This document shows positions 2,405-31,044 of a DNA stretch of 64,000 bases, in pieces. The notes beneath the pieces were generated by a model. The model searched no databases. It saw nothing but the letters and a program-made list of their open reading frames with translations, and was not told the DNA's origin. The DNA lies in the NCBI RefSeq assembly GCF_009695545.1, contig NZ_VUNS01000013.1, positions 1 to 64,000 of the forward strand, in the 5' to 3' direction. The DNA is from Victivallis lenta (GTDB taxonomy: Bacteria; Verrucomicrobiota; Lentisphaeria; Victivallales; Victivallaceae). Position numbers and translations under genes: made by a program. How positions within the stretch are numbered: position 1 is the first letter of the stretch; each line of letters begins with the position of its first letter.

Positions 2405-4019
2405 AACCGGCTTCCTCTCCACGGTGAAGTGCCGGATCGCCGTCGGCTATGCGCTGCTTTTCGCGCTCTCCTTCGGCGTCGTCTTTACGACGGTCTACTT
2501 TTACTGGCGGCTCAGCCACCTCGAAACGATGGACCGGAAGCTCTCGGTCTTCCTCAACGAGTTCGCCTACGAATACCTGACCGGCCGGGAGTTCGACACC
2601 ACTTTCGGAGCCGTTCCCTTCAAGCGCGTGCCGGAGGCGGCACTCCGGATCATCGAACGAAAAATCGACGGTTTTTCGCCGCTCTCCGCCTTCCGGAACG
2701 TCGGCGACGAACAGCAATTCACCCTGCTCGGCACACAGGGCGGCCGCCTCTGCCGGCTTCGGCTCAATCTGGCGGACGAATCGTTCGAAGCCGAGATCAT
2801 GAAGCACGCCGGACATGCCGGTTTCCTGCAAAAAGAGTTCAACAGCGAAACCTACGGAGAAGGACGGGGCCAGACCTTTTTTCTGCTGCTTTCCCCCGAA
2901 CGCGAGGTGCTGGCCAGTTCCCCGTTCGCACCGCAGCTGCTCGCTTTTCTCAGGGAATTCGATTACCGCCCCGGGCAGGAATCCGTCCAATATACGATCA
3001 TACGTCCCGGCCGGCACAATCTCCGGCTGGCATACCAGCGGCAGTATGACGGCACGATTCTCGCGATCGGCGGCAGCCTCCACGCGATGGACGAGTCACT
3101 GGACCGGCTCATCGCCATTTTCTGCATCACCGGAATCCCGATCCTGCTGATCGGCGCGCTGGTGGGATGGCTGCTCGCCCGGCGGTTCGTCTCCGGCATC
3201 GACCGGGTCTGCCGCGCCGCGGACGTAATCGCCGCCGGCGACTACTCCCTGCGCGTCCACTCCGCCGGGGAAGGCAGCGAAATCGACCACCTGATCCGCA
3301 CCTTCAACCGGATGGTCGGCAATACGGAGACGCTCATGAACGAGCAGCGGAACATCTCCGACAATATCGCCCACGACCTGCGGACCCCGCTGACCCGCAT
3401 CCTCGGGCGCGCCGAACTCGCCGCCTCCGGCCGGCAGGAGCTCGAAATCTACCAGAACACAGTCGCAGACATCGGCGAAGAGTGCTACCGGATGCTGAAT
3501 CTGATCAATATGATGCTGGAAATCTCCCGGACGGAATCCGGCGCAGTCGAAATCACCCGCAGCCGTTTCGATTTCCGCGCCATGCTGCGGCGTTCCGCAG
3601 AGCTGTTTTCGATGCCGGCCGAACAGAAACATCAGAAACTGACGCTCCGCCTGCCGGAAACGCCGGTCCTGGTCTGCTGTGACCAGCAGAAACTTCAGCA
3701 GGTCGCCGCCAACCTCCTCGACAATGCAATCAAATTCACTCCCGAGGGCGGCGCCGTCGATGTCGAACTGAGCGTCTGCGACGGCGAAATCCGCTTCTCC
3801 GTCGCGGATACCGGCTGCGGCATCCGCGAGGAGGAGCGCCCGGAAATCTTCAAGCGGTTCTACCGGGCGGACAACAGCCGTTCGCTGCCCGGCAACGGGC
3901 TCGGCCTGAGTCTCGTCTCGGCCATCGTCACGGCTGCCGGCGGCAGCATCACCGTCGAAGCCGTCCTTCCGCGGGGCAGCCGGTTCACCGTCCGCCTCCC
4001 CGGCCTTCTCGCCAAATAA
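2391..4019 (+). CDS. Membrane sensor histidine kinase, partner of the upstream response regulator
   Basis: This 542-residue protein has a membrane segment at about 16-39, an extracytoplasmic sensor region of about 200 residues without a recognised fold, and a second membrane segment at about 240-262. HAMP follows (about 262-315), then a HisKA domain with the phosphoacceptor His328 in N-I-A-H-D-L-R-T-P-L-T. The ATPase domain shows the N box (L-L-D-N-A-I-K-F-T-P), G1 (D-T-G-C-G-I) and G2 (G-N-G-L-G-L-S-L). The arrangement is that of CusS-like kinases. The 14-base overlap with the regulator implies translational coupling. What it senses cannot be read from the sequence; the upstream esterase is a possible but unproven target. 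Confidence 0.92.
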   Translation: MFWSKTGFLSTVKCRIAVGYALLFALSFGVVFTTVYFYWRLSHLETMDRKLSVFLNEFAYEYLTGREFDTTFGAVPFKRVPEAALRIIERKIDGFSPLSAFRNVGDEQQFTLLGTQGGRLCRLRLNLADESFEAEIMKHAGHAGFLQKEFNSETYGEGRGQTFFLLLSPEREVLASSPFAPQLLAFLREFDYRPGQESVQYTIIRPGRHNLRLAYQRQYDGTILAIGGSLHAMDESLDRLIAIFCITGIPILLIGALVGWLLARRFVSGIDRVCRAADVIAAGDYSLRVHSAGEGSEIDHLIRTFNRMVGNTETLMNEQRNISDNIAHDLRTPLTRILGRAELAASGRQELEIYQNTVADIGEECYRMLNLINMMLEISRTESGAVEITRSRFDFRAMLRRSAELFSMPAEQKHQKLTLRLPETPVLVCCDQQKLQQVAANLLDNAIKFTPEGGAVDVELSVCDGEIRFSVADTGCGIREEERPEIFKRFYRADNSRSLPGNGLGLSLVSAIVTAAGGSITVEAVLPRGSRFTVRLPGLLAK

Positions 4020-4072: not shown

Positions 4073-5683
4073 TCAGCGGCGGCTGCGGCCGCGGCTGCCG
4101 CTCGAAGAACGGCGGAAGGAACTGCCGCCGGACGAGCGCCGCCCGGCCTGCTTTGCGGGCTTCGCGCCCGGAACCGGCTCCGGCATCCGGAGCATTTCAT
4201 CGGTCGGCTGTTCACTCGGGAACTGGACGCCGAGCAGCTTTTCGATATCCGGCAGGAAATACGCGCCGTATTCGCAGAGGAAGCTGATCGATTTGCCGGT
4301 ATGCCCGGCGCGGCCGGTACGGCCGATGCGGTGGACGTAATCCTCGGCGCGCTCCGGCAAATCGTAGTTGATGACCAGCGAAACGTTGTCGACATGGATG
4401 CCGCGCGCGGCGACGTCGGTCGCAATGACGATCTTTTCGGTTCCGGCCCGGAATTTCTCGAGGATTTTGATCCGCTTGTCCTGCGGAATGTCGCCGGACA
4501 GCACCGGGACGTCGTAGCCGAAACGGGCGAGGTCGTACTGCAGCCGCAGGTTCACATCCTTGCGGTTGCCGAAGATAATGATCCGCTCATACGGTTCGGT
4601 GCGGAGAATGTGCAGCAGGAGCGCGAGTTTCTCGTCGCGCAGCACGGAGAAAAACGTCTGCTCGATGTTCTCGCTGACCATGTTCTCCGGCTCGCTCTCG
4701 AAAACGACCGGATCGGCCAGCCAGTCCGAAGTGAACCGCAGAATGTGATCCTCGAGCGTCGCCGAGAACAGGAGCGTCTGGCGTTCTCCCTTCTTCGGCA
4801 GCTGCGCCACGATCCGCTTCACGTCCGGAATAAACCCCATGTCGAGCATGCGGTCCGCCTCGTCGATGACCAGAACCTCGACCTTCGAAAGATCGAGGTC
4901 TCCGCCGCGCGAATAATCGATGATGCGCCCCGGGGTGCCGATGACGAGATCGACCGGCTGCCGCAGGGAACGGCGCTGCTTCTCATGGTCCATGCCGCCG
5001 AATACGACGACGCTGGTCAGCCCTGTGAAGACGCCGAGCGCTTCGGCATCCTTATGGATCTGCATCGCAAGTTCGCGGGTCGGCGCCAGTACGAGGGAAC
5101 GCGGCCGGCCCGGCTTGCGGTCACCCTCCAGCGGATTGTTCAGGAAGCGCGTGAAAGTCGCCAGCAGGAACGCGGCCGTCTTGCCGGTTCCGGTCTGCGC
5201 CTTGCCGGCCAGGTCGCGCCGCTCAAGCAGCGCCGGAAGCGCCAGTGCCTGAATCGGGGTGCAATATTCGAATCCGGCGTTCTGCACGCCGTACTGGACC
5301 TCTTCATGCAGCGGCAGATCGAGAAACCGCACCTTGCCCTCCGCCGGCGGAACCTCTTTGAGCGCGGCGGGATGCTCCGGCTTCGGGGCCTTCGGCGCAT
5401 CCGGGGTCTCGACCTGAACCGGACGTTCGGAACGTTCGCGCTTCGGGCCGCGCTCGCGTTTCGGGCGGGAGGACGCTGCGACGCGCCCCTCTCCGTCGCG
5501 GGACCGTTCCCGCGTTTTTTCCCCCTGCTTCTCCCGCGCCCTGCGGGACGGCTGTTCCCTGGCGGCGCGCGGCTTCTTCTTCTCCTCCGGCTTTTTCGCG
5601 GCCGGTTCGATTTTCACGACGACCTTATGCTGCTCATCGACTCCGAGCAGGACTTTCAGGGCTTTCTTCAGTTTCTTCAGCAT
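4073..5683 (-). CDS. DEAD-box ATP-dependent RNA helicase with charged N- and C-terminal tails
   Basis: This 536-residue RNA helicase probably acts in ribosome assembly or RNA turnover. The start at 5683 (MLKKLKKALK) has GGAGGAAAG upstream; a longer frame to 5731 lacks such support. After an Arg/Lys/Glu-rich linker of about 110 residues come the Q motif, motif I (A-Q-T-G-T-G-K-T), Ia (P-T-R-E-L-A), II (D-E-A-D), III (S-A-T), V (A-T-D-V-A-A-R-G-I) and VI (H-R-I-G-R-T-G-R-A-G). The C-terminal 40 residues are Arg/Ser-rich, ending in a glycine-spaced basic tail likely to bind RNA. The layout resembles RhlB/RhlE proteins, but I would not name it more exactly. Monocistronic, with its own terminator. 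Confidence 0.93.
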   Translation of the reverse strand: MLKKLKKALKVLLGVDEQHKVVVKIEPAAKKPEEKKKPRAAREQPSRRAREKQGEKTRERSRDGEGRVAASSRPKRERGPKRERSERPVQVETPDAPKAPKPEHPAALKEVPPAEGKVRFLDLPLHEEVQYGVQNAGFEYCTPIQALALPALLERRDLAGKAQTGTGKTAAFLLATFTRFLNNPLEGDRKPGRPRSLVLAPTRELAMQIHKDAEALGVFTGLTSVVVFGGMDHEKQRRSLRQPVDLVIGTPGRIIDYSRGGDLDLSKVEVLVIDEADRMLDMGFIPDVKRIVAQLPKKGERQTLLFSATLEDHILRFTSDWLADPVVFESEPENMVSENIEQTFFSVLRDEKLALLLHILRTEPYERIIIFGNRKDVNLRLQYDLARFGYDVPVLSGDIPQDKRIKILEKFRAGTEKIVIATDVAARGIHVDNVSLVINYDLPERAEDYVHRIGRTGRAGHTGKSISFLCEYGAYFLPDIEKLLGVQFPSEQPTDEMLRMPEPVPGAKPAKQAGRRSSGGSSFRRSSSGSRGRSRR

Positions 5684-5727
5684 GTTACACTTCTTTCCTC
5701 CGGGTGCTTGCGAATGGTTGGCGCACC

Positions 5728-6606
5728 TCACAGATTTTTAACGACTTCTTTCAGATATGCGGCGAACGCTTCGCGGAATTCGGGACGCCGCAGCCCGAAT
5801 TCGACGGTTCCGGTCAGGAACCCGAGTTTATTGCCGAGATCGTAGCGTTTTCCGGCGATGACCCGCCCGTACATTGCACGGCGCGAGAGCAGAAGGCGCA
5901 TCGCGTCGGTCAGCTGGATCTCGTTGCCTTTGCCGCGCGGCGTCCTTTCCAGCGCCGCCATGATATCCGGCGTGAAGATGTAGCGGGAGGCGATGACCAG
6001 ATTGCTCGGCGCCTCCTCCGGAGCGGGCTTCTCGACCCACCCGTTGACTTTGTAAAGCCCCTCGCCGATACATTCGCCGTCCACCACGCCGTAGCGGCTC
6101 ACCCGCTCCATCGGGACCGTCTCGAGCGCGGTGACCGGAGACTCGAACGTTTCGAAGGCCGCGACAAGCTGGCCGGTGACCGTCGTCTCCGTCGCCGAAT
6201 CAAGCACGGTATCGCCGAGCAGCACCGCGAACGGCTCGTTCCCGACGAACGACTTCGCGCAGCGCACGGCGTCGCCGAGCCCGTTCAGCTCCTGCTGGTG
6301 GATGTAGTGAATATCGGCAAGGCGGCTGATGGAGCGGAGCTCTTCGAGGAGCTCCTGCTTCTTCGTGGCCTCGAGCCGGCTTTCAAGCTCGAAGGCGCGG
6401 TTGAAATGATCCTGAATCGCATTTTTCCCATTGCTGGTGATGATCAGGATCTGGTCGATTCCGGCGGCCGCCGCCTCTTCGACGACATACTGAATCACCG
6501 GTTTGTCGACAAGCGGAATCAGCTCTTTCGGCACGGCCTTGGTGAACGGGAGGAAGCGCGTGCCGAATCCGGCGGCGGGAATGACGGCCTTGCGAATCTT
6601 CTTCAT
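5728..6606 (-). CDS. galU: UTP--glucose-1-phosphate uridylyltransferase (GalU-type)
   Basis: This 292-residue nucleotidyltransferase should join a sugar 1-phosphate and UTP to give a UDP-sugar and pyrophosphate. The nucleotide-binding signature (A-A-G-F-G-T-R-F-L-P-F-T-K-A-V-P-K-E-L at about 10-28), P-V-I-Q-Y-V-V-E-E-A, and the later V-L-L-G-D and G-W-V-E-K-P motifs all match bacterial GalU, as does the length. The start ATG at 6606 overlaps the stop of the upstream GHMP kinase by four bases (ATGA), so the two proteins are translationally coupled. That pairing suggests the natural substrate may be the kinase product (perhaps glucuronate 1-phosphate) as well as, or instead of, glucose 1-phosphate; this is inference. 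Confidence 0.92.
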   Translation of the reverse strand: MKKIRKAVIPAAGFGTRFLPFTKAVPKELIPLVDKPVIQYVVEEAAAAGIDQILIITSNGKNAIQDHFNRAFELESRLEATKKQELLEELRSISRLADIHYIHQQELNGLGDAVRCAKSFVGNEPFAVLLGDTVLDSATETTVTGQLVAAFETFESPVTALETVPMERVSRYGVVDGECIGEGLYKVNGWVEKPAPEEAPSNLVIASRYIFTPDIMAALERTPRGKGNEIQLTDAMRLLLSRRAMYGRVIAGKRYDLGNKLGFLTGTVEFGLRRPEFREAFAAYLKEVVKNL

Positions 6607-7622
6607 CGCGCGCACCCCGTTCCGACGATCTCCGGCTTGATCACGTTGATCCCTTCCGTTTTCAGGACCCGGACAAGCTCGCAGTACATCTTCTCGTTCT
6701 CGTAGGTTCCGATGATCGCGCCGCCGGAACCGGTGAATTTCGCCGAGGCGCCGACCGAGCGGGCGAGCTCGACCATCTGCCGGTTCTTGGAGCTGACCGC
6801 GTTCGGGCAGACTTCGCAGCGGAGATCGAAATTGCGGTTCAGCAGCTCCGGGACAGCATTGAAATCCCGCCGCTCGAAAGCGGTCTTGACCCGGCAGGTC
6901 AGCTGCGCCCACTCCTCCATGGCGGCCACCACCTGAGGGACGCCGGATTCGTAGTCCTCGCGCAGGCGGCTGTGCAGCACCTCGGAGCCCTCCGCAAGAT
7001 CCGTACGGTAAGCGACGTACAGATTCAGCCCGGCCGGAATTTCGATCGGCTCATACCGCCCGATGCCGTGCTCGCGCATGTACTCGCGGTCGAAGTCCAT
7101 AAACACCGGCGTATTATAGGCCTGCGCGACACGATCCTGCAGCCCGGCCGGAATGCCGAGCTCGTCCCGTTCAGTGGAGAGCACGACGTTGGCCAGCACG
7201 GCCGGGGCGAGCTTCACATGATAGAACTCCATCATGGCCCGCATCGCGGCGGTGATGATCGCCGACGACCCCGCCAGCCCGAGCCGGTTCGGAATCGTGC
7301 TCGAATAGCGGATCGTGAAATTCTTCTTCTCGAGCCTGATCCCTTCGGCGTGACAGAACTCGTTGAACTTTTTGACCGCCGCCTTCAGCAGGCGGATTCC
7401 GCCGTAATAGCCGTACTGCTGCACATCGGCGCTGAGCGCATCCATGCACGAAAAAATATTATGATCGCGCTTTGAAGGCCACAGCTCGAGCTCGGGCGTC
7501 TCATACAGCTCCGCCTCCGCCTGGTAATTGCGAAACACAAAAGCAATCGTTTTGCCGTGATAACCGTCGGAAGGGTTCCCGATAAGCGCCGCGCGGGGAA
7601 ACGCGATGGTTTTGATGATCAT
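6603..7622 (-). CDS. GHMP kinase resembling plant glucuronokinase
   Basis: This 339-residue GHMP-superfamily sugar kinase has the ATP-binding motif P-N-R-L-G-L-A-G-S-S-A and the C-terminal K-F-T-G-S-G-G-A. Several stretches match what I remember of plant glucuronokinases rather than galacto- or mevalonate kinases: G-N-P-S-D-G-Y-x-G-K-T-I near the N-terminus, G-Y-Y-G-G-I-R-L-L, E-L-G-I-x-A-G-L-Q-D-R-V-A-Q and N-F-D-L-R. The proposed reaction is glucuronate + ATP to glucuronate 1-phosphate; a related uronate or hexose substrate is possible. It is the first gene of a two-gene operon with galU (ATGA overlap), which would convert the product to a UDP-sugar. Its promoter is visible upstream. The GHMP fold is certain, the substrate moderately so. 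Confidence 0.85.
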   Translation of the reverse strand: MIIKTIAFPRAALIGNPSDGYHGKTIAFVFRNYQAEAELYETPELELWPSKRDHNIFSCMDALSADVQQYGYYGGIRLLKAAVKKFNEFCHAEGIRLEKKNFTIRYSSTIPNRLGLAGSSAIITAAMRAMMEFYHVKLAPAVLANVVLSTERDELGIPAGLQDRVAQAYNTPVFMDFDREYMREHGIGRYEPIEIPAGLNLYVAYRTDLAEGSEVLHSRLREDYESGVPQVVAAMEEWAQLTCRVKTAFERRDFNAVPELLNRNFDLRCEVCPNAVSSKNRQMVELARSVGASAKFTGSGGAIIGTYENEKMYCELVRVLKTEGINVIKPEIVGTGCAR

Positions 7623-13352: not shown

Positions 13353-14054
13353 TTATTTATCCATGACCCAATACAAATTGAAGGTATTCCAGCCCCAGCC
13401 GTCACCGAACAGCTTCGCGGGGGAGAAGGTTTCGACATGCCCGTCCCAGAACGACAGATTGATCCTGGCATCGTGCCGGTAAGAAGCGGCGCGCCACTGC
13501 CCCTCTTCCGTCCACGGAAAGCAGAGCTTGAACTCGGAACGGTCGCACCGCACGACGCCCTCGGAATTGCCGCTGTCCATCGTATTGATCTTGCACGATG
13601 CACTGCGAAGTTTTGTGAGCTTCGAGGTCGAGAAGTTCGCATAGAGGCTCCCCCAGTAATCGCTGCCGGGGTAATAATGATTCTTGGCGTACCAGTTGCC
13701 GGTCCATTTGCTGTTGCTCAGAGGGACCGGCTTTGCCGGGCAGAGCAGTCCGGCCGGCATGTCGTGACGATCACCGCTCCAGACCGGCGGCTGCCCGAGC
13801 ATCGTGAGCCACGCTTCGTTGTTGAACCAATACGAGCGGTCCGAGCCGCCGTAGTTGATCGGCGTCATGTAGTCGTCGAAACTCCCGGCATAAAGCAGAT
13901 CGGCCGAAGCGTACATTTTCAGATTCCCGGTACACTGAGTTTTCCTGGCCGAGCTGCGCGCCTTGCCGAGCGCCGGCAGCAGCATTGAGGCCAGAATCGC
14001 AACGATTGCGATCACAATGAGAAGTTCGATCAGGGTGAAGCGGCGCGAATTCAT
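13353..14054 (-). CDS. Pseudopilin-like protein with H-x9-DG motif (module A)
   Basis: The 233-residue protein starts [19 protein letters not shown], a type IV pilin-like N-terminal helix with Glu at position +5 after the presumed cleavage point. The residue before Phe is Arg, not the usual Gly. The rest is an extracytoplasmic domain with Trp/Tyr-rich stretches and, near the C-terminus, [14 protein letters not shown], which fits the H-x9-D-G motif of planctomycete/lentisphaera pseudopilins. Its ATG overlaps the LacI regulator stop by four bases and has GGAGG seven bases upstream, so translation is coupled. The GH5-like gene follows. The role is unknown; surface display or substrate binding is a guess. 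Confidence 0.88.
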
Positions 14055-24866: not shown

Positions 24867-25562
24867 CTACAGGTTGCAGAATTCGGAGAAGTTGATCTTC
24901 AGCAGATCCGGATTCGTCGCCGCCGGATTGAACTCCTCGCGGGTGTACGACGCGACGTGCCCGTCGATGAACGAAAGATTGATCCGGTTGCCGTGCTTGT
25001 AGGAGGCGTAGGGAGGCATTTCGCTCTGCACGGCGCCCCAGCGCCAGAAGTAATGGCCGAGATAGTGGTCTTTGCCGCCCTCTTCGCAGGCGGTTTTCTC
25101 CATCATCATCCCGGCCGCCGACGGCTTCCGGAAGCCGGAGAGCTTCGCCGTGCCGTCCGACGGCGAATCCGACCAGGCGAGCGCGAAGGTCAGCGGATAG
25201 CTCTCATTGCCGTTCCAGGTCCATTCGCGCGGCGGGTCGTTCGGGCAGCTGTAGGCCCCGTCCCAGCGGGACGGCGAGTTGCCGTACTCGCTGAGCGTGT
25301 CGCTCCAGGTCGTCGTGTTGCTGACGGCCTTCGGCCCCTGGCCGTTGTGGTCGCCGCAGTACTGGATGACCGAAAGCGCAAGCTGCTTGAGCTTGTTTGT
25401 GCAGGAGATGGCGCGCGCCCGCTCCCGGGCCTGGTTCAGCGCCGGCAGCAGCATGCCGGCCAGAACCGCGATGATCGCAATGACGACCAGCAACTCAATC
25501 AATGTAAAACGGCGGCGGCTTCCGGCTGAAGCTGCGTTCCGGCGGAAATAAAGTCTTTTCAT
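24867..25562 (-). CDS. Pseudopilin-like protein with H-x9-DG motif (module B)
   Basis: The protein has 231 residues from the ATG at 25562, which has AAGGAG eight bases upstream. After a short basic leader comes [27 protein letters not shown], the pilin-like helix, again with Arg rather than Gly before Phe. Near the C-terminus [14 protein letters not shown] fits H-x9-D-G. The leader is longer than in the other two. It is the first gene after the regulator of module B and is followed within two dozen bases by the two GH123-like genes. Role unknown. Confidence 0.88.
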
Positions 25563-25702
25563 TGTCGATTCTCCTTGCTGTTTATTACGGGGTGTTTTCA
25601 AGGGTTCATCCGGACACAGCCGGTCTTTTGAGTGCGTGACACGGGAATGCCGTCGATGGGGACGGCCGGAAAAAATGCGGAAAAAAATCGTTTTTTACTG
25701 TC

Positions 25703-30279: not shown

Positions 30280-31044
30280 ATGAACAGAACCGCAAGAGTC
30301 CCCGCATTCACGCTGATCGAACTTCTGGTGGTCGTTGCGATCATCGCCATCCTCGCTTCGATGCTGCTGCCGGCGCTGAACCAGGCCCGCAGCCGGGCCG
30401 AAGCGACCAAATGCACCTCGAACCAGAAACAGGTCATGCTCGCCCAGATGCAGTACGCCATCGATTTCAACGACCAGATGGGAATCATGATCACCTACGG
30501 CGCCAGGGGGAAATTCGAGGCGTGGGTCAATCTGCTCACCCGAGAGGCCTCCGTCACCGGCAATCTGCCGCTCGGCAACGGTTATCTGCCGCTCAACGCG
30601 ACCCGCTGTCCCGGCAACAAGGTCGCCACGCCGGCCTTCTCCTCGTTCTGGGGCTGCTACGGCTTCTACCGGGGACACAGCTTCGGCAACTGCACCCGCC
30701 GGGAACGCACCGGCGACTGGGTCAAATACAATTACACCACAACCGACGAGTGCGTCTACCTGCCGCGCCGGATGAAGCAGCCCTCCACGATCGTCGTGCT
30801 CGCGGATACGGTCGCCTCCGGCGTCGCCTCGTCGCAGCGCGGCAACTCCTCCTACTACTGGAATCCGGACGGTCCGGTCGACGGCACCCACGCCGTCGGC
30901 ATCCACTGCGGACACGGCGGCCGCAGCAACGCCGGTTTCGGCGACGGACACGTCGGCGCCCGGAGCGCAGAGGAGCTGAAGGCCGGTTCGATGCAGATCA
31001 AATACACCATCGACCGCAACCTGATCCCGAAAACGATCAATTGA
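30280..31044 (+). CDS. Pseudopilin-like protein with H-x9-DG motif (module C)
   Basis: The 254-residue protein begins [26 protein letters not shown], with Ala before the Phe where canonical prepilins have Gly. It contains several Cys residues (C-T-S-N-Q-K, R-C-P-G-N-K, W-G-C-Y-G-F-Y, N-C-T-R-R, D-E-C-V-Y, H-C-G-H-G-G), more than the two other pseudopilins. The H-x9-D-G motif is [13 protein letters not shown] long terminator follows the gene, ending this operon. Unknown function; likely anchored in the inner membrane with the domain outside. Confidence 0.88.

Follow-up and report, generated by a model that had tools for sequence, protein, structure and literature searches.

Organization of the kinase-galU locus

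The window, i.e., the whole stretch of 64,000 nucleotides that was analyzed, belongs to a genome assembly of 5.5 Mb (99.9% complete) whose nearest named relatives are Victivallis, and the gene pair studied here sits on contig 13 of that assembly. The features of the locus are the following:

6603..7622, minus strand: GHMP-superfamily sugar-1-kinase, predicted to be glucuronokinase-like (339 aa, ATG start)
5728..6606, minus strand: GalU-family uridylyltransferase, probable UDP-glucuronate pyrophosphorylase (292 aa, ATG start)
6603..6606, minus strand: ATGA overlap of the kinase stop and the galU start, probable translational coupling
4073..5731, minus strand: DEAD-box RNA helicase (RhlB-like), downstream of galU

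As the earlier note had claimed, the end of the kinase gene and the beginning of galU share four bases. The TGA stop codon of the kinase (6605-6603) and the ATG start codon of galU (6606-6604) fall within the ATGA found at 6603-6606 on the minus strand, and translation of both genes is probably coupled through this overlap. A longer galU frame started by GTG is also present, and it is the ATG start that fits the family. The helicase has a long charged N-terminal extension and is located 3' of galU in 22 Lentisphaeria loci. It was not found at the other kinase loci and, being confined to Lentisphaeria, probably has no part in the function of the pair. The existence of a conserved third gene was discarded, as both the helicase and another cluster (10 loci) are lineage-specific. 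Elsewhere in the window, three proteins (13353-14054, 24867-25601 and 30280-31044) show type-IV-prepilin-like N-termini (FTLIELL[IV]V[IV]AI), and a further one was observed at L133:4155-4889.

The kinase contains the Pfam domains GHMP_kinases_N (47.3 bits, cut-off 22.3) and GHMP_kinases_C (24.6 bits, cut-off 21). It keeps the motifs GNPSDGYxGKT, PNRLGLAGSSA (residues 111-121), GLQDR (160-164) and FTGSGGA (296-302); the second of them matches the GHMP ATP loop PxxxGLxxSSA, and the C-terminal glycine motif GSGG is also there. Residues P111, G115, A117-A121 and G298-G301 were invariant across 35 aligned kinase sequences. The AlphaFold2 model, built with a 35-sequence alignment, had a pLDDT of 88 and its nearest folds were GHMP sugar kinases, the best being P. 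furiosus galactokinase (TM about 0.80). Domains, motifs and modelled fold all agree, and the protein is a member of the GHMP kinase superfamily. These domains, and the score of the partner with the TIGR01099 GalU model (347.3 bits, above the cut-off of 326.8), bear out the GHMP kinase beside galU that had been claimed.

None of the NCBIfam equivalog models scored over its cut-off with the kinase. The best named match was HddA (NF049969), with 51.3 bits vs. a cut-off of 600, and the PDB sequence matches were weak ones to heptose and mevalonate kinases (HddA-type at E 5e-11), with no glucuronokinase among them. The kinase showed 40% identity over 306 aa to a sequence which we take to be that of Arabidopsis GLCAK; this sequence was written down once the query had been seen, so that the plant resemblance should be taken as no more than a lead.

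Linkage and co-occurrence of the kinase and GalU

Counting the host, 27 of the 61 near relatives encode the kinase, and galU was directly downstream of it in all 20 relatives' loci examined, mostly with overlaps or short gaps. A scan of the genomes of 84,980 species gave at least 577 confirmed relatives of the kinase. Among the best 80 of these loci, which span Lentisphaerota, Verrucomicrobiota, Bacteroidota and a few other groups, GalU was encoded downstream on the same strand in 70 and within 80 nt in 67. The recurrence of this gene order indicates that the pairing is not due to chance. The pair is also borne by a plasmid of Rufibacter tibetensis typed as mobilizable (L024), a possible vehicle for its transfer, and no relatives were found in the viral contigs searched.

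Co-occurrence was studied in a sample of 240 genomes of the host phylum, in which matches of at least 249 bits were considered strong GalUs. The kinase was found in 78 genomes and a strong GalU in 67, 66 of which had the kinase (Fisher p 2e-45, a value that ignores shared ancestry). The sole genome with GalU and no kinase (G159) comes from a genus in which the kinase was found in all the other members sampled. Twelve of the 78 kinase-bearing genomes gave no GalU match, and some of them have a short or different nucleotidyltransferase. Both genes were on different contigs in at least 10 genomes of this sample. Of 247 Bacteroidota genomes, 8 encode GalU and exactly the same 8 encode the kinase; in 4 of them galU comes first and then the kinase. 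In addition, 19 kinase-bearing genomes from several phyla mostly had exactly one strong GalU each. The co-occurrence holds despite flipped gene order or separated genes and, since the distribution of GalU follows that of the kinase, a role of GalU as a general housekeeping gene was discarded for these phyla. UDP-glucose 6-dehydrogenase (UGDH) is present in 28 of the 33 GalU-negative relatives, which must therefore make UDP-glucose otherwise; GalU is not their source of it. As far as comparative genomics goes, the coupling of kinase and GalU claimed by the earlier note is established, and its functional nature is strongly supported by adjacency, by the near-perfect co-occurrence in two phyla and by the group-specific residues of the GalU sugar site described below.

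Several loci depart from the usual arrangement. In rumen Lentisphaeria (L067, L068, L069, L071, and L072) a UGDH lies just upstream of the kinase; that of L071 reached 628.8 bits with PRK15057, below the cut-off of 757, and was over the cut-off of TIGR03026. At L066 the kinase follows a different type of UGDH, TuaD/animal-like. An SDR resembling UDP-uronate epimerases is located after the kinase at L068, L069, L071, and L072. The SDR of L071 is similar to the solved protein 5u4q, named dTDP-glucose 4,6-dehydratase, and more weakly to MoeE5 and the 6zl6 group, which are presumably UDP-glucuronate epimerases. In the genomes of L065, L066, L069, and L071, GalU is encoded elsewhere. These neighbours of UDP-glucuronate type occur in one clade only; with the UGDH and decarboxylase-like genes of the host described below, they uphold the link to UDP-glucuronate that had been put forward.

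Genes named by eye as glycosyltransferase-, aminotransferase- or sugar-transferase-like were observed near the kinase at L067 and L071-L073, rumen Lentisphaeria loci in which GalU is not adjacent, suggesting surface-polysaccharide loci. At L056, a 246-aa nucleotidyltransferase from outside the GalU family (3001-3741) comes directly after the kinase and is possibly a non-orthologous replacement of the GalU partner. Finally, the distant kinases of L138 and L142 (about 43% identity) have a GalU-like enzyme of 249-254 aa encoded directly upstream.

The sugar site of the GalU partner

The partner keeps the catalytic residues K27, D132, E192, and K193, and in the whole set of linked GalUs R17, K27, D132, E192, and K193 (catalytic or Mg-binding) are invariant. 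The glucose contacts of B. subtilis YngB, obtained from an overlay with the H. pylori enzyme, are Asp134, Gly172, Glu191, and Val204 (PMC7961091). They align with T133, G173, E192, and I205 of the partner, so that three are kept (once with I for V) and Asp134 is replaced by Thr133. In the host partner the neighbouring A206 and S207 are also altered with respect to canonical GalU. Among 90 linked GalUs, position 133 is T in 88, with one S and one C, position 206 is A in 88 and position 207 is S or A in 81. The 11 canonical GalUs compared, from Pseudomonadota, Bacillota and Actinomycetota, have D/M/V/E at 133, I/V/N/L/M/P at 206 and G at 207. In kinase-bearing genomes where the two genes lie apart, position 133 of GalU is T or A, and it is T or S in the kinase-associated GalUs of Bacteroidota. 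Position 133 is variable among canonical GalUs as well, being V in E. coli. In the phylogenetic tree, 10 of the 11 canonical GalUs formed a clade of their own that excluded the kinase-associated GalUs, which did not form a single clade themselves.

Without an acidic or a bulky side chain at this point, the sugar site would accommodate the C6 carboxylate of a uronate. This reading of the alignment is suggestive only because Klebsiella GalU naturally carries Val at this site, and V138D or V138A alters its activity little (PMC11796359). The partner is like GalU and YngB in its fold family, its catalytic residues and its score over the TIGR01099 cut-off. However, its group has T, S or A at the glucose-contacting Asp position and small residues at 206-207, and most kinase-free genomes of these phyla do not encode it. 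The name "GalU" is probably wrong for the partner.

Predicted salvage of glucuronate

In plants, GLCAK (EC 2.7.1.43) makes glucuronate-1-phosphate and USP then makes UDP-glucuronate, and for bacteria the usual view is that UDP-glucuronate is made from UDP-glucose and that free glucuronate is burned. In the mechanism proposed here, the kinase would phosphorylate free D-glucuronate at C1 with ATP, and the GalU-family partner, with its altered sugar pocket, would convert the resulting glucuronate-1-phosphate and UTP into UDP-glucuronate. Both enzymes would form a salvage module alongside the de novo synthesis of UDP-glucuronate by UGDH. We consider this conversion of glucuronate to UDP-glucuronate by the pair likely; the substrates of both enzymes and the direction of flux are what we infer from the comparisons above. 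Of the glucuronate salvage that the earlier note had claimed, the coupling of kinase and GalU and the link to UDP-glucuronate stood, and the specificity of either enzyme for glucuronate is a prediction.

By analogy, the pair would do in bacteria what GLCAK and USP do in plants and the fused enzyme does in zebrafish. As in plants, a GHMP kinase (about 340-360 aa) would be followed by a second enzyme that uses UTP. However, the partner here is a 292-aa bacterial GalU-family enzyme, adjacent and co-inherited, whereas plants use USP. In the GKUP of zebrafish and Xenopus, an N-terminal pyrophosphorylase of 260 aa is fused to the glucuronokinase that follows it; the kinase of the fish and frog enzymes is active, that of zebrafish is specific for glucuronate, and the pyrophosphorylase activity of zebrafish GKUP could not be demonstrated in standard in vitro assays (PMC3938481). 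The same work reported bacteria as having the pyrophosphorylase only (PMC3938481), and no bacterial glucuronokinase or salvage route of this kind was found in the mostly open-access literature searched. In both GKUP and the bacterial pairs a bacterial-type nucleotidyltransferase is physically tied to a glucuronokinase or a putative one, and L138 and L142 even share with GKUP the order and a similar size of the GalU-like part. Unlike GKUP, the host has separate overlapping genes, and the bacterial pairs mostly have the kinase first.

With regard to the metabolism of the host, its contig 44 encodes an animal-like UGDH (L135:5145-7599; 619 bits to a solved UGDH) adjoined by a UDP-glucuronate-decarboxylase-like (UXS-like) gene (408 bits). 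Judging from these similarities, they are probably a de novo UDP-xylose pair, and their vicinity implies that UDP-glucuronate is probably made and converted to UDP-xylose. UDP-glucuronate coming from the salvage would be used, for instance, through this same UXS-like decarboxylase. The host also encodes the uronate isomerase UxaC, so free glucuronate is probably burned as well and salvage would compete with catabolism. Seven of the 28 GalU-bearing relatives have no animal-type UGDH (that type alone was counted, and several genomes are incomplete), and in them salvage might replace de novo synthesis. A UDPGP-family protein (PF01704) is present in 58 of the 61 relatives. The host copy is closest to UDP-GlcNAc pyrophosphorylase, which discards it as a spare UDP-glucose pyrophosphorylase and implies that GalU could still supply UDP-glucose in the host.

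The two steps could instead start from a different free sugar (galacturonate, galactose or some other hexuronate, for example) and yield the corresponding UDP-sugar. Kinases with the GHMP fold act on many sugars, galactokinases are the closest solved folds and the UDP-uronate-epimerase-like neighbour would suit galacturonate equally. However, the closest characterized relative is probably a glucuronokinase, the zebrafish kinase is reported as glucuronate-specific and the UGDH neighbours make UDP-glucuronate directly, so we regard this option as unlikely. Less probable still is that GalU is an ordinary UDP-glucose pyrophosphorylase and the kinase feeds another pathway, the two genes being merely co-regulated or co-transferred. 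This would agree with the TIGR01099 equivalog score, with the presence of all the catalytic residues and with the UDP-GlcNAc type of the host UDPGP protein, no other source of UDP-glucose having been identified in the host. Nevertheless, the co-occurrence survives without adjacency and through changes of order, most GalU-negative relatives must make UDP-glucose without GalU, and the pocket residues are consistently unlike those of canonical GalU. As for an HddA/WcbL-type heptose kinase working towards a nucleotide-activated heptose, the kinase shares with this family the GHMP fold and motifs and finds there its best named NCBIfam and PDB matches, but this very improbable reading was discarded since the HddA score is far under the curated cut-off, the partner is uridylyltransferase-like and none of the recurrent neighbours could be recognized as an HddC-type guanylyltransferase, a heptose isomerase or any other heptose gene.

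Returning to glucuronate salvage, the kinase-associated GalUs may be an unrecognized group of dedicated UDP-glucuronate pyrophosphorylases, for which hundreds of genomes would carry the wrong annotation of UDP-glucose pyrophosphorylase. With the kinase they would constitute a cross-phylum uronate-salvage module, from which the glucuronokinase systems of eukaryotes could descend; we regard the case for this broader proposal as evenly balanced. If it is true, gut, rumen and environmental bacteria living on uronate-rich polymers would have a second route to UDP-glucuronate, and an entire subgroup of GalUs would have its annotation corrected. These proteins could also serve as the pyrophosphorylase control that the zebrafish study lacked, and as new enzymes for the production of UDP-uronic acids. 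The pair also bears on the origin of the plant and animal glucuronokinases.

Finally, a second GalU-like family of these phyla was observed at L128, L129, L130, L167, and L168; the open frames that contain its GalU-like region are about 640-790 codons long, and it has a GDH motif in place of GDD/GDT.
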